Of a stretch of DNA of 64,000 nt, positions 16,225-27,789 are shown piece by piece; position 1 is the stretch's first letter, and each line of letters opens with the position of its first letter. A program made the position numbers and the translations under genes. Under the pieces are notes generated by a model. That model was not told the origin of the DNA and searched no databases. It saw only the letters and a program-made list of their open reading frames with translations. This stretch comes from a virus. The stretch is taken from IMG/VR virus record IMGVR_UViG_3300021371_000012, positions 1 to 64,000 of that record; one strand, 5' to 3'.

Positions 16225-18510
16225 ATGACTGAAATAATTAAAAGAGACGGAACAAAAGAACTATTAAATATTGAAAAATTACATAAAGTAGTATTTTTTG
16301 CTTGTGAAGATATTGCAGGAGTTTCTCCTAGTGAAGTAGAGATGCATAGTCAGCTTCAGTTTTATGATGGTATTAAAAGTTCTGATATTCAAGAAACCTT
16401 AATCAAATCAGCAGCGGATCTTATTAGTGAAGATACCCCAAACTATCAATATGTAGCTGGGCGTCTTATTACATATCACGTTCGTAAAATGGTTTATGGA
16501 CAGTATGAACCTATTTCTTTGCGTGAATTAGTAGAAAAAAATATTGAACGTGGTTTTTACGATCCTGAGATATTAAACTACTACACTAAAAAAGAATTTG
16601 ATATTCTAAATAAGCATATTAAACATAAGCGTGATGAAAATCTAACCTATGCTGCAATGGAGCAATTTAGAGGTAAATATTTAGTTCAAAACCGTGTAAC
16701 AAAGCAAATATTTGAAACACCTCAAATGGCTTATATGTTAATCGCAATGACTTTATTTAATAGCTATGATAAAGAAAATAGAATTAGATGGGTAAGAGAA
16801 TATTATGATGCAATTAGTAACTTTGATATTAGTCTTCCTACTCCTGTGATGGCCGGTGTGCGCACACCACAAAGACAATTTAGCTCTTGTGTACTTATCG
16901 AAACAGATGATTCACTTGATAGTATTAATGCTACTACTAGTAGTGTTGTTAAATATGTCAGCCAAAAAGCAGGCATTGGGATTGGAGCAGGTAGTATTAG
17001 AGCACTTGGTACTCCAATCCGGAATGGAGATGCTTACCACACAGGAGTTATTCCTTTTTATAAAATGTTTCAAGCAGCGACACGATCCTGTTCTCAAGGA
17101 GGAGTACGAAATGGTGCTGCTACTTTGTACTACCCAATTTGGCACTACGAAGTCGAAGATCTTTTAGTATTAAAAAATAATAAAGGTACAGAAGATAATA
17201 GGGTACGTCACATGGATTACGGAGTACAATTTAATAAATTAATGTACGAGCGTTTATTACAAGGAGGTGATATTACACTATTCTCTCCAAGTGACGTCCC
17301 ACACCTATATCATTCTTTTTTTAATGATCAAGAATTGTTTAAAATTGTATATGAAAAAGCAGAAAAAAATCCTGATATTCGTAAAAAAACTATTAAAGCA
17401 ATTGATTTGTTTTCTATGTTTATGGAAGAACGTAAAAATACAGGACGCATTTATTTAATGAATGTAGACCATGCTAATACACACTCTTCTTTTGATGAAA
17501 AATTAGCTCCGATACATCAATCTAATCTATGTTGTGAAATTGACTTACCAACAAAACCTTTACGTGATTTTAATGATCCTGACGGAGAAATTGCTCTATG
17601 TACTCTTTCAGCAATCAATTGGGGTAATATTCGTAAACCAGAAGATTTTGCAAAACCTTGTGAACTTGCTGTTCGTGGATTAGACGCTTTGTTATCTTAT
17701 CAACACTACCCTGTTTTGGCAGCAGAAATTTCTACAGATCTTAGAAGACCTCTAGGTATTGGTATTATCAACCTAGCATATTGGTTGGCTAAAAATAATA
17801 CAACATATCAAAATCCAGATTTAGAGCTTATTGACGAATATGCAGAAGCATGGAGTTATTATTTAATTAAAGCTTCTAATGATTTAGCAATTGAACAAGG
17901 TTTTTGTCCTGGCTATGTGGAAACAAAATACGGTAAAGGTATTACTCCAAATCAAACATATAAAAAAGATGTTGATGAATTAGTACCTCATGTAGAGCGC
18001 ATGGATTGGGAATCTCTAAGAAAAAGTTTAAAAGAGCATGGTATTAGAAATTCTACTTTAATGGCTTTGATGCCTGCAGAAACCTCAGCTCAGATTTCTA
18101 ATGCTACAAACGGCATTGAGCCTCCTCGTAGTTTTGTAAGTATTAAACAATCAAAAGATGGAGTATTAAAGCAGGTTGTTCCGGGTATCCATAAACTAAA
18201 GAAAAAATATGATCTACTATGGGATCAAAAATCACCAGAAGGTTATTTAAAAATTATGGCAGTGTTACAAAAATACATTGACCAAGGCATTAGCGTAAAC
18301 ACCAGTTATAATCCGGTGCATTATGAAGATGAGAAAATTCCAATGAGTACTATGATTCAGCATTTATTGATGTTTTATAAATACGGTGGAAAACAATTAT
18401 ACTATTTTAATACTTACGATGGACAGGGAGAAATAGATATAAATAAATTAGATGAAGAATTACCTTTAGAAGATATTGATGAAGGAGAATGTGAAAGTTG
18501 CGTGATATGA
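16225..18510 (+). CDS. nrdA: Ribonucleotide reductase class Ia, alpha subunit
   Basis: This 761-aa protein reduces ribonucleoside diphosphates to deoxy forms together with NrdB. It has an ATP-cone at residues 1-90. The redox Cys in SSCVLIETDD (about 220) and the active-site segment NLCCEIDLPT (about 431-440) are present, as is the paired Tyr in QLYYFNTYDG near the end. The C-terminal CESCVI shuttles electrons from glutaredoxin or thioredoxin. It supplies dNTPs from host ribonucleotides. AGGA precedes the ATG. nrdB follows after one small gene and glutaredoxin lies 4 kb downstream. Confidence 0.95.
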   Translation: MTEIIKRDGTKELLNIEKLHKVVFFACEDIAGVSPSEVEMHSQLQFYDGIKSSDIQETLIKSAADLISEDTPNYQYVAGRLITYHVRKMVYGQYEPISLRELVEKNIERGFYDPEILNYYTKKEFDILNKHIKHKRDENLTYAAMEQFRGKYLVQNRVTKQIFETPQMAYMLIAMTLFNSYDKENRIRWVREYYDAISNFDISLPTPVMAGVRTPQRQFSSCVLIETDDSLDSINATTSSVVKYVSQKAGIGIGAGSIRALGTPIRNGDAYHTGVIPFYKMFQAATRSCSQGGVRNGAATLYYPIWHYEVEDLLVLKNNKGTEDNRVRHMDYGVQFNKLMYERLLQGGDITLFSPSDVPHLYHSFFNDQELFKIVYEKAEKNPDIRKKTIKAIDLFSMFMEERKNTGRIYLMNVDHANTHSSFDEKLAPIHQSNLCCEIDLPTKPLRDFNDPDGEIALCTLSAINWGNIRKPEDFAKPCELAVRGLDALLSYQHYPVLAAEISTDLRRPLGIGIINLAYWLAKNNTTYQNPDLELIDEYAEAWSYYLIKASNDLAIEQGFCPGYVETKYGKGITPNQTYKKDVDELVPHVERMDWESLRKSLKEHGIRNSTLMALMPAETSAQISNATNGIEPPRSFVSIKQSKDGVLKQVVPGIHKLKKKYDLLWDQKSPEGYLKIMAVLQKYIDQGISVNTSYNPVHYEDEKIPMSTMIQHLLMFYKYGGKQLYYFNTYDGQGEIDINKLDEELPLEDIDEGECESCVI

Positions 18511-18911
18511 AAAAATTAATTATGATAGGATTATTAGTCTCTACCCCTGTTTTTGCAGAAGATGCTATCGTCAACGACCATTATAAAACAGTTATTGAGC
18601 AAAAACCTTACAAAGTAGAAGTTTGTAAAGATGTTACAGTATCAGGAGATAAAACAAAAGACACTTTAATGGGAGCCATTATAGGCGGAGCAATAGGAAA
18701 TAATGTTACTAAAAATGTTGAAAATGGTGGCGCCGTTGGAGCATTGTTAGGAGGTATTATTGCTAATCAAAACAGCGATGCTACTGGAGGAACAACCAGA
18801 CAGTGTTCTATAGAAACTCGTTACCAAGAAGAGTCAAAACAAGTATATAGTCATAGCACTGTTACTTTTTGGTCAAATGGAAAAAAATACAACTTAAGAT
18901 TTGATAGGTGA
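18507..18911 (+). CDS. Secreted glycine-zipper protein between nrdA and nrdB
   Basis: About 134 aa. The ATG overlaps the nrdA stop (ATGA). A TTG at 18498 lies better placed from GAAGGAG (18481-18487) and is an alternative. It has a signal peptide (KKLIMIGLLVSTPVFA) and a Gly-rich pair of helices (LMGAIIGGAIGNNV ... GGAVGALLGGIIANQ, about residues 55-90). This resembles the glycine-zipper 2TM domain of bacterial outer-membrane-associated proteins. Two Cys flank the zipper. Function unknown; it probably inserts in or associates with the cell envelope. Confidence 0.65.
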   Translation: MKKLIMIGLLVSTPVFAEDAIVNDHYKTVIEQKPYKVEVCKDVTVSGDKTKDTLMGAIIGGAIGNNVTKNVENGGAVGALLGGIIANQNSDATGGTTRQCSIETRYQEESKQVYSHSTVTFWSNGKKYNLRFDR

Positions 18912-18915
18912 TAGG

Positions 18916-20040
18916 ATGACAATATTAAACACAAAACAGAATGATCATACAAAAGCAAAAATGTTTTTTGATGACGAAGATTTAGGTATGCAAAGATATG
19001 ATACTCTCAAATATCGTGCATTTGATAAGCTTACTGACAAACAACTTGGTTTTTTCTGGAGGCCAGAAGAAATAGATATTTTACGTGATGCAGCTGATTT
19101 TAAAAATCTTACAGAACACGAGCAGCATATTTTTACATCTAATTTAAAGCGTCAAATTGTTTTAGACTCTGTACAAGGTCGTGCTCCTGCAGAATCCTTT
19201 GGCTCTATCGTAGGAATACCTGAACTTGAAAATTGGATTATTACTTGGACTTTTTCTGAGACTATTCATTCACGTTCTTATACTCATATTATTCGTAATA
19301 TCTACCCTAATCCATCAATAGTGTTCGATGAAATGATGAATATTAGTGAAATTATAGACTGTGCAGATAGTATTTCTAAACATTATGATAAATTAATTGA
19401 AATGACTAAATGGTATCAACTATTAGGAGAAGGTACTCACGAAGTCAATGGTAAAACAATCAAGATAGATCTTTATGAGCTTAAAAAATTACTATACTTA
19501 TGTATTGCCAGTGTAAATATTCTTGAAGGAGTTCGTTTCTATGTAAGTTTTGCTTGTAGTTGGGCATTTGCTGAATTGAAGAAAATGGAAGGTAATGCTA
19601 AAATTATTAAACTCATTGCCAGAGATGAAAATGTACACCTAGGCAGTACGCAACAAATACTAAAACTGCTTCCACAAGACGATCCCGAATTTATTAAAAT
19701 CGCAAAAGAATGTGAAAAAGAAGTTATTAATATGTTTATCGAAGCAGTTGATCAAGAGAAACAATGGGCAGACTATTTGTTCAAGGACGGTTCAATGATT
19801 GGTCTTAATTCGCAACTACTAAAAGACTATATTGAATGGATTGGTAATAAGAGAATAACAGCTATAGGACTTAGCTCACCTTATTCTGTTCCTAGAGCCA
19901 ATCCATTACCTTGGACACAAAAATGGATTAGTGGTGCTGAAGTACAAGTAGCACCACAAGAAACGGAAATTTCTTCATACGTAATCGGAGGTACTAAGCA
20001 AGATGTAACTAATGATTCGTTTAAGGGATTTTCACTTTAA
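18916..20040 (+). CDS. nrdB: Ribonucleotide reductase class Ia, beta subunit
   Basis: A 374-aa ferritin-like diiron protein that holds the tyrosyl radical. The segment FSETIHSRSYTHI (about residues 112-124) supplies Glu and His ligands and, four residues after the His, the radical Tyr. The second half gives ARDENVHLG (about 235) with Glu and His ligands. The presence of Tyr and both iron sites supports class Ia. An earlier TTG at 18901 is in frame; the ATG at 18916 preceded by GATAGG is preferred. Confidence 0.94.
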   Translation: MTILNTKQNDHTKAKMFFDDEDLGMQRYDTLKYRAFDKLTDKQLGFFWRPEEIDILRDAADFKNLTEHEQHIFTSNLKRQIVLDSVQGRAPAESFGSIVGIPELENWIITWTFSETIHSRSYTHIIRNIYPNPSIVFDEMMNISEIIDCADSISKHYDKLIEMTKWYQLLGEGTHEVNGKTIKIDLYELKKLLYLCIASVNILEGVRFYVSFACSWAFAELKKMEGNAKIIKLIARDENVHLGSTQQILKLLPQDDPEFIKIAKECEKEVINMFIEAVDQEKQWADYLFKDGSMIGLNSQLLKDYIEWIGNKRITAIGLSSPYSVPRANPLPWTQKWISGAEVQVAPQETEISSYVIGGTKQDVTNDSFKGFSL

Positions 20041-20056: not shown

Positions 20057-21136
20057 ATGAAGTATTTTGAAAAAGTGTTTCATACTATAGTAATCAGTAT
20101 ATTTTTAGGTTTTATGTCAGCAATTGCTGTAGCATCAGAGCCTGTTAAGGTAGGTTTTGTATATGTCGGGCCTATCGGTGATCATGGCTGGACATATCGT
20201 CATGACATTGGTCGTCAACAAGTAGAAGAAGCATACGGAGACAAAGTTAAAACAATCTACGCCGAAAGCGTACAATATGGCCCTGATGCAGAACGTGTAA
20301 TCCGGCAGATGGCAAAAGAAGGTGCTGACATCATCTTTGCTACAAGTTTTGGTTATATGGAACCAATGCTTAAAGTTGCTAAAGACTTTCCAAATGTAAA
20401 GTTTGAACATGCGACAGGTTATAAACGTGCAGACAATATGAGTACATACGGATTGCGCTTGTATCAAGCACGCCATGTGCAAGGTGTTATTGCAGGACTA
20501 ATGACAAAGACAAACAAGATTTGTTATGTTGGTGCGTACCCTATTCCAGAAGTCATCCGTGAAATTAATACCTATTATATGGGTGCAAAGAGTGTAAATC
20601 CTAAAGTTGACATTGATGTCATTTGGGTAAACACTTGGTACGATCCTAGTAAAGAAGCAGATGCTGCCAACGTTATGATGGCAGAAGGCTGTGACATGAT
20701 GGCACAACACACTGATTCACCTGCTCCATTACAGGCTGCACAACTAAAAGGCAAGTTAGGTTTTGGTCAAGCAAGTGATCAGATCAAGTTTGCTCCTAAA
20801 GCACAACTTACAGCAACTATTGACAACTGGGGTCCTTACTACATTAAGAAAGTAGGGCAGGTTATTGATGGTAACTGGCAAGTTGAAGATTACTTTGGTC
20901 ATATGAATGAAGATGCTGTGCAAATGGCGCCTTTTACAAATATGCCAGCAGACGTAGAAGCAAAAGCACAAGCAATTAAAGATGCTATTTCTAAAGGCGA
21001 GTACTTTGCATTTACAGGCCCAATTAAAGACAACACTGGTAAACTGCAACTTGCAGACGGCGTTGTTGCTGACGATGCACACCTTAACAGCATGATGTAT
21101 TATGTTGAAGGTATTGACGCAACGGTACCTAAGTAA
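20057..21136 (+). CDS. BMP-family ABC transporter substrate-binding protein
   Basis: A 359-aa periplasmic protein with a clear signal peptide cleaved near AVAS. The mature part begins VKVGFVYVGPIGDHGWTYRHD, followed by ADIIFATSFGYMEPM (about 85) and MAEGCDMMAQHTDSPAPLQAA (about 200), as in BMP/PnrA/Med-type binding proteins. Known members bind purine nucleosides or related bases and feed an ABC permease. No permease or ATPase is encoded here, so it would have to use host transporter parts. AAAAGGAAAAAAA precedes the ATG. Sampled lines here have about 48% GC against about 33% in nrdB. This indicates recent transfer, probably from a bacterium. Confidence 0.87.
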   Translation: MKYFEKVFHTIVISIFLGFMSAIAVASEPVKVGFVYVGPIGDHGWTYRHDIGRQQVEEAYGDKVKTIYAESVQYGPDAERVIRQMAKEGADIIFATSFGYMEPMLKVAKDFPNVKFEHATGYKRADNMSTYGLRLYQARHVQGVIAGLMTKTNKICYVGAYPIPEVIREINTYYMGAKSVNPKVDIDVIWVNTWYDPSKEADAANVMMAEGCDMMAQHTDSPAPLQAAQLKGKLGFGQASDQIKFAPKAQLTATIDNWGPYYIKKVGQVIDGNWQVEDYFGHMNEDAVQMAPFTNMPADVEAKAQAIKDAISKGEYFAFTGPIKDNTGKLQLADGVVADDAHLNSMMYYVEGIDATVPK

Positions 21137-21993
21137 TGATTCCAGTTATTGATTTCACATGTGAATCAGTATTGGAAGAGATTCGCGAAGCCTACACAAC
21201 TGTGGGCTTCGCTGTTTTTACTAATACACTAAATCCCAAAGATAAACAAACCATGCATCACTGGTTTGATTACATGAAGCAGTTCTTTGAATTGGACTTA
21301 GATACAAAAAAGAAATACAGTTATCAAGCAGAAAATAACTTAGGATACAGTGTAATGGGTGCAGAAAATGTAGACCCAACTGCTCCTAAAGATATGAAAG
21401 AAAGTTTTAATTACAATAATACTCGTATGCCTGACTCCCTATGGCCAGAGGAAGTTGACCTTCGTACAACAGGATTACAAACTATTCGTATTGCAGATGA
21501 TCTAACACTGCGTATACTTGCTAAGTTTGATACTATCCTAGACTGCGGTACTACACTAGTAGATGCGCATCAGGATCCATATAATACAACACGAGTAATT
21601 CACTACCCTGCATACACTGGTCCACTAGAAGACAAGCAAATGCGTATAGGTGAACACAGTGACTACGGCACCATCACACTGTTATGGCAGATCAATGATG
21701 TGCCAGGGCTTCAAGTACAGGATTTAGGAGGTGTCTGGCATCCTGTTCCCTATGCAGAAGATGGTGTCGTAGTTAACATTGGTGATTTGCTACAGCGTTG
21801 GACTAATGATTATTTCGTTAGTACAAAGCACAGAGTAGTTAACACACACATTGACCAAACACGCTACAGTATGCCACACTTTGTAGATCCTACACCAGGA
21901 ACTATTGTAAGTAACCTGCGTGATGAACCTGCAAAGTATGATCCCATTGAAAGCAAAGCATACCTGATGTGGCGACTAGCACAGAGTTATTAA
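21136..21993 (+). CDS. 2OG-Fe(II) oxygenase, isopenicillin N synthase-like
   Basis: A 285-aa protein, coupled by TAATG overlaps to the genes on both sides. The N-terminal half has the IPNS-type start (IPVIDFT ... GFAVFTN). The iron site is HSDYGTITLL (His and Asp, about residues 174-183) and STKHRVVN (distal His, about 230). RYSMPHFVDP (about 243) supplies the Arg and Ser that bind 2-oxoglutarate. Bacterial relatives near BMP transporters may act on purines or other small nitrogen compounds, but the substrate cannot be read from sequence. GC is near 50% in places. Confidence 0.85.
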   Translation: MIPVIDFTCESVLEEIREAYTTVGFAVFTNTLNPKDKQTMHHWFDYMKQFFELDLDTKKKYSYQAENNLGYSVMGAENVDPTAPKDMKESFNYNNTRMPDSLWPEEVDLRTTGLQTIRIADDLTLRILAKFDTILDCGTTLVDAHQDPYNTTRVIHYPAYTGPLEDKQMRIGEHSDYGTITLLWQINDVPGLQVQDLGGVWHPVPYAEDGVVVNIGDLLQRWTNDYFVSTKHRVVNTHIDQTRYSMPHFVDPTPGTIVSNLRDEPAKYDPIESKAYLMWRLAQSY

Positions 21994-22508
21994 TGATTAA
22001 ACAGTATATTAAAAGTTACCCAGACTTCCCTGTTGCAGACGTGGACTTTAAATGCACAGCAAGTTTATGTGCAAGTGAAGGATTTAAACTTACAAACAAC
22101 TACATGTATGATAACCTACTCAAGTATTGTCCTGTGGATAAAATTGTAGGTTTAGATGCAAGAGGTTTTATATTTGGTGCAGTGCTTGCACATAGAACAG
22201 GAAGCAGTCTTGTACTATGCCGTAAACAAGGCAAACTACCTGGTGCTACAGTAAGCAACACATTTGAACTAGAGTATGGTACTGCTACAATGGAAATACA
22301 AAAAGATAGTATCAACAGAGGCGATAGAGTTATTATTATAGACGACTTAATAGCTACTGGAGGTACTATGCAAGCCGCTATAGACATGATTTATGAACTA
22401 CACGCTACTCCTATTGCAGTAGCAGTAGCAATGGATTTAAATTTTTTAGGTGGTAGTAAAAAAATAAAAGAACAAGGTATAAATTTTTATGCTGCAACAA
22501 AGTATTAA
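21993..22508 (+). CDS. apt: Adenine phosphoribosyltransferase
   Basis: A 171-aa type I phosphoribosyltransferase. GLDARGFIFGAVLAHR, CRKQGKLPGATVS, LEYGTATMEIQ and the PRPP loop IIIDDLIATGGTMQAA (about residues 112-127) match APRT closely. It converts adenine and PRPP to AMP. The ATG overlaps the oxygenase stop. With the binding protein upstream and ribonucleotide reductase it completes a route from imported purine to deoxynucleotide. GC content (about 40% in a sampled line) lies between the insert and the flanking genes. Confidence 0.9.
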   Translation: MIKQYIKSYPDFPVADVDFKCTASLCASEGFKLTNNYMYDNLLKYCPVDKIVGLDARGFIFGAVLAHRTGSSLVLCRKQGKLPGATVSNTFELEYGTATMEIQKDSINRGDRVIIIDDLIATGGTMQAAIDMIYELHATPIAVAVAMDLNFLGGSKKIKEQGINFYAATKY

Positions 22509-22519
22509 AGGAGAACACA

Positions 22520-22744
22520 ATGAAAGCTATAATTTATTCAACCCCTGCTTGTGGGTATTGTAAAATGGCTAAAACTCTTATGGATAAACGTGGAATAAAA
22601 TATGAAGAGTTTATTATAGGACAAGACCTTACTAAAGAGGAACTAGTTGAAACACTTGGTAAGGAAGTCCGAACAGTCCCCCAGATTTTAGTTGACAATA
22701 ATTATGTAGGAGGTTATACTGAATTATCAAAATTTTTAGGATAA
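22520..22744 (+). CDS. Glutaredoxin
   Basis: A 74-aa thioredoxin-fold protein. The active site is TPACGYCKMA (CxxC at about residues 11-14), with the cis-Pro loop TVPQILVDN and a C-terminal GGYTEL that binds glutathione. It most likely reduces NrdA, whose C-terminal CESC tail is encoded upstream. AAAGGAGAACACA gives a good Shine-Dalgarno. The sampled line has about 27% GC, so the GC-rich insert ends before this gene. Confidence 0.93.
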   Translation: MKAIIYSTPACGYCKMAKTLMDKRGIKYEEFIIGQDLTKEELVETLGKEVRTVPQILVDNNYVGGYTELSKFLG

Positions 22745-24106: not shown

Positions 24107-24635
24107 TATTAAAATCGAAATTACTAAAGAAGCACAGTATTTAATTGATAGCCCTATGTTTCCTAATATTAGAAATTGGGAAATTACCCAAAATTACCCT
24201 CACGATGCTGGTTTTGATCTTCCTGCTTGTGTTAAAGATATATGGACTTTACGTCCTGGAGGGGTACATTTATTTCCAACAGGTATAAAAGTACAGCTTC
24301 CAATAGGGTGGGAGCTTCAAGTACGTCCTCGTAGCGGTTTAGCTTTAAAAAATGGAATTACTATTTTAAACACTCCTGGAACTGTAGACTATGCTTACAG
24401 AAGTGAAATTGGAGTAATGTTATATAATACAAGCAATAAACCTTTTGAAATTAGACCGGGCGATAGAATCGCACAAGCATGTATTCGTGCAGTTCCTACT
24501 GTGAATATCTCATATGTTGATGAGATTTCGGAAACTATTGAAGAAGAAGTTAAAGAATCTGGAACAGATCTTAAAGCTGAGATGGCTGCAAAATTAAATA
24601 AGAAACGTGGGGGATTTGGATCTTCGGGAGTTTAG
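24093..24635 (+). CDS. dut: dUTPase
   Basis: About 180 aa; hydrolyses dUTP to dUMP. All five trimeric dUTPase motifs are visible: DAGFDLPA, RPRSGLALK, GTVDYAYRSEIGV, RPGDRIAQA and C-terminal RGGFGSSG. Between motifs 4 and 5 there is an acidic linker of about 35 residues longer than usual. The ATG at 24093 overlaps the exonuclease end by 14 nt. Its stop overlaps the stop of the convergent fibre gene. Confidence 0.93.
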   Translation: MSMVDIKIEITKEAQYLIDSPMFPNIRNWEITQNYPHDAGFDLPACVKDIWTLRPGGVHLFPTGIKVQLPIGWELQVRPRSGLALKNGITILNTPGTVDYAYRSEIGVMLYNTSNKPFEIRPGDRIAQACIRAVPTVNISYVDEISETIEEEVKESGTDLKAEMAAKLNKKRGGFGSSGV

Positions 24636-25693
24636 TATTGTATATTTCCAGTAGTTCTATAATTGGCAGTTCCTTTTCCTGTATTTCCTATATTTGTTGA
24701 TGTTTGATCAGAAGCAAAGGGAAATTTGTCTATTCTATTATTAGTTGGATATCCATGTGTCATATATCCCGATATATTTGAACTAGTTCCTCCATGCATA
24801 GAATTTCCAGTAGAAAGTTCTGCAATGTCCGAAGAAGGTGTGTCAGCCGCATAAGTAAATTTTTGTAGTACATCTGCGTCAGTAATTCCTCCACTTACAT
24901 AAATATGTGTCTCAGACTGGTGTCCGTGTTGTGATCTATTAACTGCAACTAATGTAGCAGGTTGGTTTGAAGAAGAATTAGAAGCAAAAGGGAACTTTTC
25001 GATCGCGTTTGTATCTGCAGGAGTCTCTCCGCCGATAACATAGCCAGCAGTTTCTGAACAAGAACCAGCTCCCCAATATCTAGGAGTGCTTAAACTTGCT
25101 ACATTTGTTGCATTTCCAGGAGATACTGTTGGATAACGATTCATCATAGACATATTTGTACCTAAACCACCAACATTATACCCACGATCATTAGCCAGAT
25201 CTGCAATACCACCACACGATAAACGAGTAGCTGCTGTTAGTTGTCCGACATCAGCAGCTACACCTGCCGGATTAGCAAATGGAAAACGTAATATATTGTT
25301 AGAGGCAGCTAACGATGCAGTTCCTTGCTGACCTCCTACAACATACCCATATGAACCAGAAGCTGTACCAGTGGACTCAAATACTTTATAACCAGAAGGG
25401 CTGCCAGGTCCTAGCTGTCCTACATTTATTGTGTCTGTATCAGAAGAAAAAGGATATGCGTAAATAAATTCCCCATTTGTTGAGCTGCCTCCTACATCAT
25501 AACCAAAATTAGTTCCTGAGTAGTAAGCTCCAGAAGGTGCAGGCGCTCCTCCACCTCCTCCTGCTAAAGGAGCTGAAGGTCCGAAAATAGTTTGAATAGC
25601 TCCATTTGCTCCGACAGCAAGATTAGATTGATGAATAGCAGCATTAGCTGTTCTAAATTGTATATATGCTAAATCAATTTTTTTATCTGCCAT
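24632..25693 (-). CDS. Kelch-like beta-propeller adhesin, copy 1
   Basis: A 353-aa protein, last of three tandem relatives at the end of the late transcript. Six degenerate units carry a F/YPF-type core (YPFSSD, FPFANP, RYPTVS, FPFASN, FTYAAD, FPFASD) with a GGY-like or GYxxGG turn. This fits a six-bladed kelch-type propeller. The N-terminus (KKIDLAYIQFRTANAAIHQSN) differs from the other two and may be the attachment part. Probably a fibre or receptor-binding protein; the receptor is unknown. AGAGGTAATT precedes the ATG. Confidence 0.7.
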   Translation of the reverse strand: MADKKIDLAYIQFRTANAAIHQSNLAVGANGAIQTIFGPSAPLAGGGGGAPAPSGAYYSGTNFGYDVGGSSTNGEFIYAYPFSSDTDTINVGQLGPGSPSGYKVFESTGTASGSYGYVVGGQQGTASLAASNNILRFPFANPAGVAADVGQLTAATRLSCGGIADLANDRGYNVGGLGTNMSMMNRYPTVSPGNATNVASLSTPRYWGAGSCSETAGYVIGGETPADTNAIEKFPFASNSSSNQPATLVAVNRSQHGHQSETHIYVSGGITDADVLQKFTYAADTPSSDIAELSTGNSMHGGTSSNISGYMTHGYPTNNRIDKFPFASDQTSTNIGNTGKGTANYRTTGNIQY

Positions 25694-25702
25694 AATTACC
25701 TC

Positions 25703-26716
25703 TTATACCTGTGTTCCTGATGATCCATAAACAGCTACAGTTAATTCTCCTACATCTATAGCACTAACATCAGAAGAGTGGGGATTTTTATCTATAGTAG
25801 TTGATCCTGTATTATTACCTCCCCCCATTACAAATCCGTCTGTAGTAGAGTTAGCTCCAGCAACATAAGTTCTAGCTTCTGTTGATGCTCCTGCTACAGT
25901 ACTTCGTATTACGTCTGAAGAAAATGGAAATTTGGATCGGTTGCTGGTTCCACCAAAAGCACTAGTAATATATCCATCAGTTTCACTACTGTGTCCTGTT
26001 CCCTGATATAAACTCGGACCGGCAGGGTTAATTAACGTCCAAGAAGTATCCGATGCAAAAGATGATTTTCTATCTCTACCGCTATAACCAGTTACATAAA
26101 AATTTTCATTACTATTTGACCCTTGAGCCCAGACAGCTTCTTCATTTGCAGATTCAGCTATATCTGTAGCATTAGTATCAGAAGAAAAAGGATATTTATC
26201 TACAGTAGAAGTTCTTCCTGATGTGCTCGAGTTAGTAGAGCCTGTAAGAGCATATCCGTGTGTTGAGCTTTGCGAACCTACTACTCCTGTACGAGCAGAA
26301 GTCATATTACCTATACTTAGAACAGGTGTACCTGAAGAAAAAGGAAATTTTGTTATTGTAGAATAAACAGTAGGGCCAGGAAAGTAATTGCCTCCTGCCA
26401 TATACCCATCAGTTCTAGAAGCTGTTGATTGTGCTCCTATATAATAAAGTTGAAATAAACCACTAGTAGTTACTGCAGTAGTTGTACCAGAAGCAAAAGA
26501 AAATGAGTCTAGTCTATTTTGAATAGTACCTGGCCCAGTTCTTCCACCCATATTATACCCATCAGCAGAACCTTGTGCATATGGAGGCAAGGGTGCAGCA
26601 GTAAAAGTATCAGTACTTAAACGCACAGCACCACTATAAAAATCATAAGAAAGTTTAGTACCATCTACTGTTGTATTAGCTACTTTTAACGCGTGAATAG
26701 GAAATTTTTGTGTCAT
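25703..26716 (-). CDS. Kelch-like beta-propeller adhesin, copy 2
   Basis: A 337-aa relative of its two neighbours. Six units are seen (FSFASG, FPFSSG, YPFSSD, SSFASD, FPFSSD, NPHSSD), each followed by a short strand and a GY(x)2-3GG turn. The N-terminus is FPIHALKVANTTVDGTKLSYDF. The ATG overlaps the stop of copy 3 (ATGA), so the copies are co-translated. Blades differ strongly from copy 3, so the duplications are old or the genes diversify fast. Confidence 0.7.
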   Translation of the reverse strand: MTQKFPIHALKVANTTVDGTKLSYDFYSGAVRLSTDTFTAAPLPPYAQGSADGYNMGGRTGPGTIQNRLDSFSFASGTTTAVTTSGLFQLYYIGAQSTASRTDGYMAGGNYFPGPTVYSTITKFPFSSGTPVLSIGNMTSARTGVVGSQSSTHGYALTGSTNSSTSGRTSTVDKYPFSSDTNATDIAESANEEAVWAQGSNSNENFYVTGYSGRDRKSSFASDTSWTLINPAGPSLYQGTGHSSETDGYITSAFGGTSNRSKFPFSSDVIRSTVAGASTEARTYVAGANSTTDGFVMGGGNNTGSTTIDKNPHSSDVSAIDVGELTVAVYGSSGTQV

Positions 26717-27789
26717 ACTTGAGTTCCTGCCGCATAATATCTTAATTGAGTTAAATTACCAATGTCGGTTGCATCTGTGTCTGAAGTAAATGGAAAAATG
26801 TCAATTATATTAGTAATTCCACTAGGGCCAGTACCACCACTAGCATATCCATGAGTAGTACTTGATTGTCCAGCTACTTGATACCTTGATGCAGTTATAT
26901 CGCCAATATTGGTTGCGTCTTCGTCTGCGGTAAAACTAAACTTATCAATAGTGGTTGTAAAGGGAGAAATTCCATTTTCAGTACCCCCACTAGTGTATCC
27001 ATGCGTAACGCTTGATTGTCCAGCCATACCGTGCCTTTTAACAGAAGTATCACCAACATCGGTTGCATCTACATCTGAGCTAAAAGAAAATTTATCAATT
27101 GTGTTCACAGAGTCTGATGATGCCACGCTAAAACCCCCTGAAGAGTACCCATGAGTACCGCTTGTCTGCCCAGCGTGTTGGTATCTTATTACAGTTAGAT
27201 CGCCAACATCAGTTGCGTTTGTATCTGAGCTAAAAGGAAATTTATCAATTATATTATACGACGAAGCACCTTCGCCCCCAGTATTGTACCCATGAGTAGT
27301 GCTTGACTGTCCTGTTGTACCATATCTACCTGTTTGCAAATCACCAACGTCTGATGCGTTTGTATCTGAGCTGAAAGGAAACTTATCAATTGTTAAGTAT
27401 GTGTATGATGTTTCAAAACCCCCACTAGTGTATCCATGAGTAGTGCTTGACTGTCCTGTTACGTAATATCTTGATAAAGTTACATCACCGACATCAGTTG
27501 CGTCTGTATTTGAGCTAAAAGGAAACTTATCAATTACATTACTTACTGCACTGGATTGGCCTGTTGCGGTGTATCCAGCAGTACTTCCCGGAAAATGATT
27601 AGTGAGTGACTCTGGCACATCATCAACAAATGTACCTCTATACAAACCTGCTCGTTTTTGGTATAATCCCACACCAGTATTAAAAGTAGTATTGCCCAAG
27701 AATACTACATTAGCACCATTAAGAGTATTAGCAGTATTATTAGCGAGCCTAAAATTAATTAGTGATACTGGAACAGTAGTTAAACTCAT
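26713..27789 (-). CDS. Kelch-like beta-propeller adhesin, copy 3, most regular
   Basis: A 358-aa protein with six units of about 47-50 residues. The consensus per unit is I-D-K-F-P-F-S-S-D-T-N-A-T-D-V-G-D, then RY, AGQSSTTHGY and SGG. The N-terminal strand (STAGYTATGQSS) and the last strand (RYYAAGTQV) would close one blade, as in many propellers. The first 55 residues (VSLINFRLANNT ...) probably dock to the virion. Near identity between blades at the DNA level (for example the ATGAGTAGTGCTTGACTGTCC-like segments) makes blade exchange by recombination likely. Expected role: host attachment. Confidence 0.75.
   Translation of the reverse strand: MSLTTVPVSLINFRLANNTANTLNGANVVFLGNTTFNTGVGLYQKRAGLYRGTFVDDVPESLTNHFPGSTAGYTATGQSSAVSNVIDKFPFSSNTDATDVGDVTLSRYYVTGQSSTTHGYTSGGFETSYTYLTIDKFPFSSDTNASDVGDLQTGRYGTTGQSSTTHGYNTGGEGASSYNIIDKFPFSSDTNATDVGDLTVIRYQHAGQTSGTHGYSSGGFSVASSDSVNTIDKFSFSSDVDATDVGDTSVKRHGMAGQSSVTHGYTSGGTENGISPFTTTIDKFSFTADEDATNIGDITASRYQVAGQSSTTHGYASGGTGPSGITNIIDIFPFTSDTDATDIGNLTQLRYYAAGTQV
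26720..27560 (-). repeat. Tandem kelch-blade DNA repeat, six units
   Basis: Units of roughly 140-160 bp repeat with high DNA identity inside the preceding adhesin gene. The recurring words encode GQSSTTHGYTSGG and DKFPFSSDTNATDVGD. Spacing varies by a few codons between units, at the loop before the IDKF strand. Confidence 0.75.

Follow-up and report, generated by a model that had tools for sequence, protein, structure and literature searches.

Genes at the locus

The DNA analysed here (the window) is a stretch of 64,000 nucleotides, positions 1 to 64,000 of the 70,838-base IMG/VR viral record IMGVR_UViG_3300021371_000012. The record, which is the window plus another 6.8 kb, is that of a tailed phage, with genes for terminase, portal, head protease, tape measure, tail, DNA polymerase, helicase and primase. 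Downstream of a ribonucleotide reductase gene, nrdA (16225-18510 in the ORF list), and of the gene for its small subunit, nrdB (18901-20040, plus strand; PF00268, E 3.6e-48), we observed three plus-strand genes. Directly after nrdB, the first (20057-21136) encodes a BMP-family periplasmic substrate-binding protein of 359 residues (PF02608, E 2.7e-53; 181.3 bits against a cut-off of 24.1, residues 30-296). The second (21136-21993) encodes a 285-residue Fe(II)/2-oxoglutarate (2OG) oxygenase of the DIOX_N/2OG-FeII_Oxy family, both Pfam domains (PF03171 and PF14226) scoring above cut-off, and its codons 12-30 hold a conserved RNA stem-loop (21169-21227, plus strand). The third (21993-22508), an accessory gene, encodes an adenine phosphoribosyltransferase (APRT) of 171 residues, and a glutaredoxin gene (22520-22744, plus strand; PF00462, E 1e-15) follows directly. 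An earlier reading of this DNA, made from its letters and open reading frames (the sequence-only reading), had named the same three products and had described their genes as joined by TAATG; the Pfam and NF002636 matches agree with the former, and both junctions are indeed TAATG one-base overlaps.

The GC values given in that reading, about 48-50% for the first two genes and 40% for the third, did not stand. We measured 40.6% for the BMP gene, 40.4% for the oxygenase gene and 35.5% for the APRT gene, against 33% in nrdA, nrdB and glutaredoxin and 34% in the window. GC was set aside as a sign of foreign origin, since the quoted values were wrong, the hump is small (about 7 points above the neighbours) and other genes of this phage reach 40%.

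Between nrdA and nrdB (18498-18911) lies a gene for a small secreted glycine-rich protein, relatives of which occur near the BMP-oxygenase pair in other contigs. Three tandem kelch-like repeat genes, with a GC content of about 40%, are found on the minus strand at 24632-27789.

The BMP protein has a predicted purine site

The best solved relatives of the BMP protein were 3S99 (E 2e-118, with adenine modelled) and AtzT, 6PI5 (E 3e-105, with guanine). AtzT binds guanine with a KD of 110 nM and adenine with one of 2.5 uM, whereas non-purine nucleobases are bound weakly (KD at least 620 uM; PMC6834077). We took nine aligned ligand-site positions from the AtzT paper (PMC6834077) and observed that they were invariant in 95/95 phage BMPs, eight being equal to those of 3S99. 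The site residues in the window and in all 95 copies are W45, S97, F98, E165, W194, H218 and D220; they are the residues of 3S99 and include the aromatic pair W45/W194 together with E165. The phage protein is homologous to AtzT and 3S99 over its full length and uses the same ligand-contact positions; it differs from them in having E169 in place of a second-shell N169 or G, and in being encoded by a phage without a linked permease. We predict a purine-type ligand site from these residues. The purine ligand proposed in the sequence-only reading is supported by this site and also by host operons linked to xdhC: four Rhodobacteraceae genomes encode BMPs that share 63-73% identity with that of the window, within complete ABC operons that have xdhC as a neighbour. 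Vitamin B6 was rejected as a ligand, the model for a putative B6 ABC binding protein (NF047927) scoring 60.5 bits against a threshold of 400. Downstream of one Rhodobacteraceae purine-type ABC operon (locus L088, 11242-13481) we also saw two Rieske-like oxygenase ORFs and a GST-like gene, a cluster that by eye is like N-methylpurine demethylase clusters.

The window BMP has an N-terminal signal sequence, as do 71/75 phage BMPs by a signal-like N-terminus. A tblastn search of the window and the other 6.8 kb of the record returned no ABC ATPase or permease, in agreement with the earlier claim of a signal peptide without a permease. BMP-type permease homologues were present in 113/136 SAR116-order genomes, including all five that carry the pair, which supports the proposal that the protein uses a host ABC transporter in the manner of phage PstS. 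Like the PstS of Synechococcus viruses (PMC10976474), which serves phosphate, it is a secreted binding protein encoded without a permease and expected to work with the host's transporter, and PstS genes lie near the BMP-oxygenase pair in several contigs (cluster 72). It differs from PstS in having a purine-type site instead of a phosphate site, in being obligately paired with an oxygenase, and in belonging to uncultivated phages whose hosts are probably alphaproteobacterial. The features of a PstS-like auxiliary binding protein are all present, namely the signal sequence, the lack of a phage permease and a permease in SAR116-order genomes. By analogy, we infer that the phage BMP would deliver its ligand to a host permease.

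The BMP-oxygenase pair is conserved in viral loci

In IMG/VR we found 241 stretches with a BMP relative and 193 with an oxygenase relative; both counts are lower bounds, because the search patterns were drawn from the window protein. After removal of duplicates, the two genes were adjacent, with the BMP gene first, in 92 of the 94 distinct loci that hold both. Among BMP-led viral loci, the oxygenase was present in 78/80, and the remaining two end 16 bases or less from the BMP gene; in one of the 78 (L029) it lies 3.5 kb downstream. The core unit is the BMP-oxygenase pair, not the three genes of the window. The neighbours of the pair vary and include genes for ribonucleotide reductase, thyX, GTP cyclohydrolase I, lysozyme, PstS and class II tRNA-synthetase-like proteins, and two contigs of more than 300 kb carry a terminase gene together with the pair. 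Purifying selection is strong, with a dN/dS of 0.06-0.12 for the BMP and oxygenase genes (0.07-0.12 for BMP alone).

Among 50,697 GenBank phages there was no close relative of either protein, the best matches (39.8% identity for BMP and 27.9% for the oxygenase) being unannotated human gut records. A literature search for a phage BMP or IPNS-like module returned no report; a match obtained for APRT was rejected, as it concerned a Pta/Ack pair.

Several other genes were seen around the pair. One contig (L055, 6874-8964) has a second, diverged BMP gene (26% identity) after the oxygenase. Two viral contigs (L029, 9114-11528; L219, 4536-6991) hold a complete ABC importer, consisting of an NMT1/THI5-type binding protein, ATPase and permease, then an arylsulfotransferase-like gene and then the oxygenase. 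In a few contigs a TauD-family dioxygenase gene adjoins the pair and a short phosphoribosyltransferase (PRTase) gene (L220, 4674-5657). This neighbour (cluster 109) was considered as a xanthine dioxygenase and rejected, since its best solved relatives were TfdA, CarC and ScoE, none of them a xanthine enzyme. A truncated class II (D, K, N) tRNA-synthetase-like protein, corresponding to PHROG 29758, is encoded near the pair in about 49 loci (cluster 4; for example L210, 6323-7168).

The oxygenase is related to thymine-7-hydroxylase

The oxygenase carries the HxD...H metal triad and the RxS motif for 2OG and fits the DIOX-type Fe(II)/2OG family. The metal ligands H174, D176 and H232, the 2OG residues R153, Y157, R243 and S245, and an aromatic sandwich of Y177 and F249 were invariant in 90 oxygenase copies. 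By sequence, the nearest solved relative was thymine-7-hydroxylase (T7H; E 3e-25, residues 15-285). Isopenicillin N synthase (IPNS) was matched with an E of 4.7e-5 over residues 168-258 only, and we rejected the assignment as IPNS proper, T7H being the closer of the two among solved structures. Structure comparison gave the same order: with an AlphaFold2 model of pLDDT 96.5, Foldseek placed eleven T7H chains first (E 1.9e-24), and the next protein had an E of 1e-21.

T7H is a fungal enzyme (5C3P-5C3S) that holds the free base sandwiched between F292 and Y217 (PMC4787775). Its pocket positions N87, R190, Y217 and F292 are retained in the phage oxygenases, along with the metal and 2OG residues and Y324 and R328 of the C-terminal helix. 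However, identity is only about 30%, the context is phage or bacterial rather than fungal, and in every one of the 90 phage copies N92 and D251 stand in place of E122 and N294 of T7H. With these two pocket residues replaced, the enzyme was rejected as a thymine-7-hydroxylase proper. The aromatic sandwich is not diagnostic, because it is present in bacterial relatives of unknown function too. We read the phage protein as a predicted free-base oxygenase with altered edge recognition. The earlier suggestion that it converts a modified base is plausible and gains support from the T7H kinship, the particular base and the reaction remaining putative.

Identity to the bacterial relatives that we sampled did not exceed about 41%. 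A complete BMP-type ABC transporter adjoins 5/23 of the sampled distant bacterial homologue loci, and one of these five (L290) also has genes for cytidine deaminase (cdd) and uracil PRTase (upp).

APRT is one of several accessory genes

The third gene of the window scored 164.7 bits with NF002636 (cut-off 125) and 155.6 bits with TIGR01090, which is under that model's own cut-off of 185.85. Its best PDB matches were APRTs (E 8e-36) and it contains the PRPP-binding motif IIIDDLIATGGT. The salvage role given to it in the sequence-only reading is supported. APRT was found in a minority of the loci. We surveyed PRPP-motif ORFs in the 66 loci with enough downstream sequence, and within a span of 2.5 kb downstream such an ORF was present in 21/66, about a third. 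They come from four unrelated families, namely APRTs, XGPRT-like proteins, short PRTase-like proteins and a PRPP synthetase that was seen once. The motif was found in 36/348 downstream ORFs and in 8/1024 ORFs elsewhere in the same loci, an odds ratio of 15 that is uncorrected for phage relatedness. The short PRTase-like family had no Pfam match; its predicted fold is closest, with moderate confidence, to orotate phosphoribosyltransferases (pLDDT 77, E 4e-5). The accessory genes are interchangeable, and APRT is one among them.

A hairpin is maintained inside the oxygenase gene

The terminator scan of the window found a 12-bp stem at 21185-21212, the core of the stem-loop, which begins 33 nt past the BMP stop. 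We evaluated codon choice at this position in 67 thinned phage oxygenase genes. The synonymous codon that allows pairing was chosen for Ala in 66/67, Gly in 67/67 and Val in 66/67 genes (p 4e-31, 2e-13 and 3e-16). At the hairpin Ala, GCC was used 59 times, while GCC makes up 3.6% of the Ala codons elsewhere in these genes. In a gene-wide scan, the nine most constrained of 270 codons all fell in codons 11-25. When codons were resampled with the protein fixed, the mean folding energy was -25.3 kcal/mol for the natural genes as compared to -11.0 kcal/mol (mean z -4.2), and by the same synonymous-codon null there was no comparable structure elsewhere in the oxygenase gene. In the outer stem, double changes at one pair were seen in 22 sequences, and some outer pairs are often broken. 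A specific long core pattern occurred in 79 IMG/VR stretches, and over all loci examined 151/151 sites of the core pattern lay inside the oxygenase gene; a short pattern (14 fixed bases) returned mostly unrelated palindromes from IMG/VR and was set aside. Rfam 15 had no match at the gathering score, the best being 16.3 bits against 47. The hairpin is a clear case of an RNA element maintained inside a coding sequence.

The strength of the hairpin follows the position of the BMP gene. Of 97 genes, the three weakest stems were those of L223, L029 and L222, where the BMP gene ends 49, 3,472 and 1,062 bases upstream. The hairpin z was below -2.3 in each of the 92 other genes that BMP directly precedes. 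One locus (L211) keeps the hairpin without BMP directly upstream, so that it is weak or lost in 3/4 loci lacking a directly upstream BMP gene. L222 and L223 have their own intergenic hairpin after BMP, and L029 has no replacement after its detached BMP gene. The four Rhodobacteraceae BMP genes also have their own intergenic hairpin downstream. Since the hairpin is weak or lost in most loci with a detached BMP gene, and since BMP in L222, L223 and the Rhodobacteraceae has a hairpin of its own, we take the stem-loop to be a 3' hairpin that belongs to the BMP message and that genome compaction has pushed into the following reading frame.

In ABC operons, 3' stem-loops raise the binding protein over the permease, the REP element of malE-malF being an example. 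The strong hairpin just after the binding-protein stop, as in the Rhodobacteraceae BMP genes, resembles these, but in the phages it is encoded in the coding sequence of the next gene and kept by synonymous codons. That the stem-loop is not an mRNA stabiliser but works on the oxygenase, as an attenuator or as an intrinsic terminator of partial effect, is a possibility that we take seriously and rate below an even chance. The window stem is followed by TGTTTTTACT, which scored as terminator-like, and any 3' hairpin that lowers the oxygenase would show the same link to BMP adjacency. However, the T-run is not selected, because the Val codon after the stem is spread over GTC (27), GTT (19), GTA (12) and GTG (9) in the 67 genes; its third base covaries instead with column 96 of the outer stem (22 double changes). 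The missing selection for T after the stem leans towards a putative mRNA stabiliser over a partial terminator. Few detached loci stand behind the stabiliser role, and against it are L211, which keeps the hairpin, and L029, which has no replacement.

A possible route from outside purines to phage DNA

Phages are usually thought to take nucleotides from degraded host DNA and from host synthesis. The presence of the BMP-oxygenase pair in many uncultivated marine phages suggests a previously unreported way to use outside purines. As judged from its site residues, the secreted BMP would bind a purine base in the host periplasm and pass it on to a BMP-type ABC permease of the host, in the way expected of phage PstS for phosphate. 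The T7H-related oxygenase would then oxidise the imported base; the likeliest chemistry would be demethylation of a methylated purine, or some other oxidation through which the base becomes fit for salvage, and to demethylation, which we prefer, we would give roughly one chance in three. A phosphoribosyltransferase, here APRT, would join the base to PRPP, yielding AMP beside the phage ribonucleotide reductase. In two thirds of the loci no PRPP-motif gene lies within 2.5 kb, and there host PRTases must therefore serve. If the stem-loop in the first oxygenase codons closes the BMP message at its 3' end, BMP would be made in excess over the oxygenase. As a whole, a phage nucleobase-capture module, with purine uptake, oxidation, phosphoribosylation and a hairpin-set excess of BMP, seems to us moderately probable, its substrate and chemistry being predictions. 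The more specific proposal, a new salvage route in a widespread marine phage module that imports a modified purine (a methylated one, for example), converts it to an ordinary base by a dedicated 2OG oxygenase and phosphoribosylates it for phage DNA at a stoichiometry set by the hairpin, is tentative and in our view falls short of probable. It is an argument against the capture module that APRT can act without an oxygenase, and that adenine would need none.

Three other explanations have to be weighed against purine capture for nucleotides. As T7H does with thymine, the oxygenase might act on a pyrimidine or another N-heterocycle, making the module a general nucleobase scavenger. T7H is its nearest solved relative, a distant bacterial homologue (L290) belongs to a BMP-ABC cluster that also encodes cytidine deaminase and uracil phosphoribosyltransferase, and in L029 and L219 the oxygenase stands behind a complete NMT1/THI5-type ABC importer. 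However, the BMP site is of the purine type and AtzT binds non-purine nucleobases weakly (PMC6834077), while two of the T7H residues in contact with thymine (E122 and N294) have given way to N92 and D251 in 90/90 phage copies; we consider a pyrimidine substrate unlikely. Somewhat less likely again is that the module serves the nitrogen or carbon supply of the infected cell, by an oxidative opening of purine catabolism, and not its nucleotide pool. This would agree with host BMP operons adjoining xdhC, part of xanthine catabolism, and with the nutrient-uptake gene PstS near the pair in several loci (cluster 72), but the neighbouring genes for ribonucleotide reductase, thyX, GTP cyclohydrolase and phosphoribosyltransferase belong to nucleotide synthesis, and the window had no recognisable urate or allantoin genes. 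That the genes are passengers, chance-captured cellular DNA or mis-binned contigs with no role in infection, is very improbable. The record with the window has terminase, portal and tail genes, two contigs above 300 kb hold terminase and the pair, dN/dS is low for both genes, and the pair recurs beside different neighbours; against these stand its absence from GenBank isolate phages and the fragmentary state of many contigs.

We favour purine capture, and if it is true, the phages would re-equip infected cells to draw on dissolved purines. It also yields a testable prediction for a so far uncharacterised family of oxygenases, through an uptake-plus-oxygenase pair that is conserved in hundreds of uncultivated marine contigs and absent from isolates.

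Origin of the pair

We found a close copy in only 6/136 SAR116-order genomes; one of the six is a MAG and the other five are SAR116 genomes. In both the BMP and the oxygenase tree, the copies of these five are placed among phage branches, and a topology in which the phage oxygenases form a single clade separate from the bacterial ones was rejected (AU p 0.0003). The sequence-only reading had proposed that the three genes came as a block from a bacterium. This is unsupported, because the close SAR116 copies nest inside the phage clade; moreover, the pair is the unit and APRT is interchangeable. Phage-to-bacterium transfer is the simpler reading. The Rhodobacteraceae BMPs mix with phage BMPs in the tree, and therefore BMP itself has been exchanged with hosts.

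The five SAR116 genomes with the phage-like pair are represented by L083 (9986-12864), L082 and L084-L086. Downstream of the pair in L083, at a distance of about 450 bases, there is an XGPRT-like gene, and L082 has an amidohydrolase gene on the other strand.
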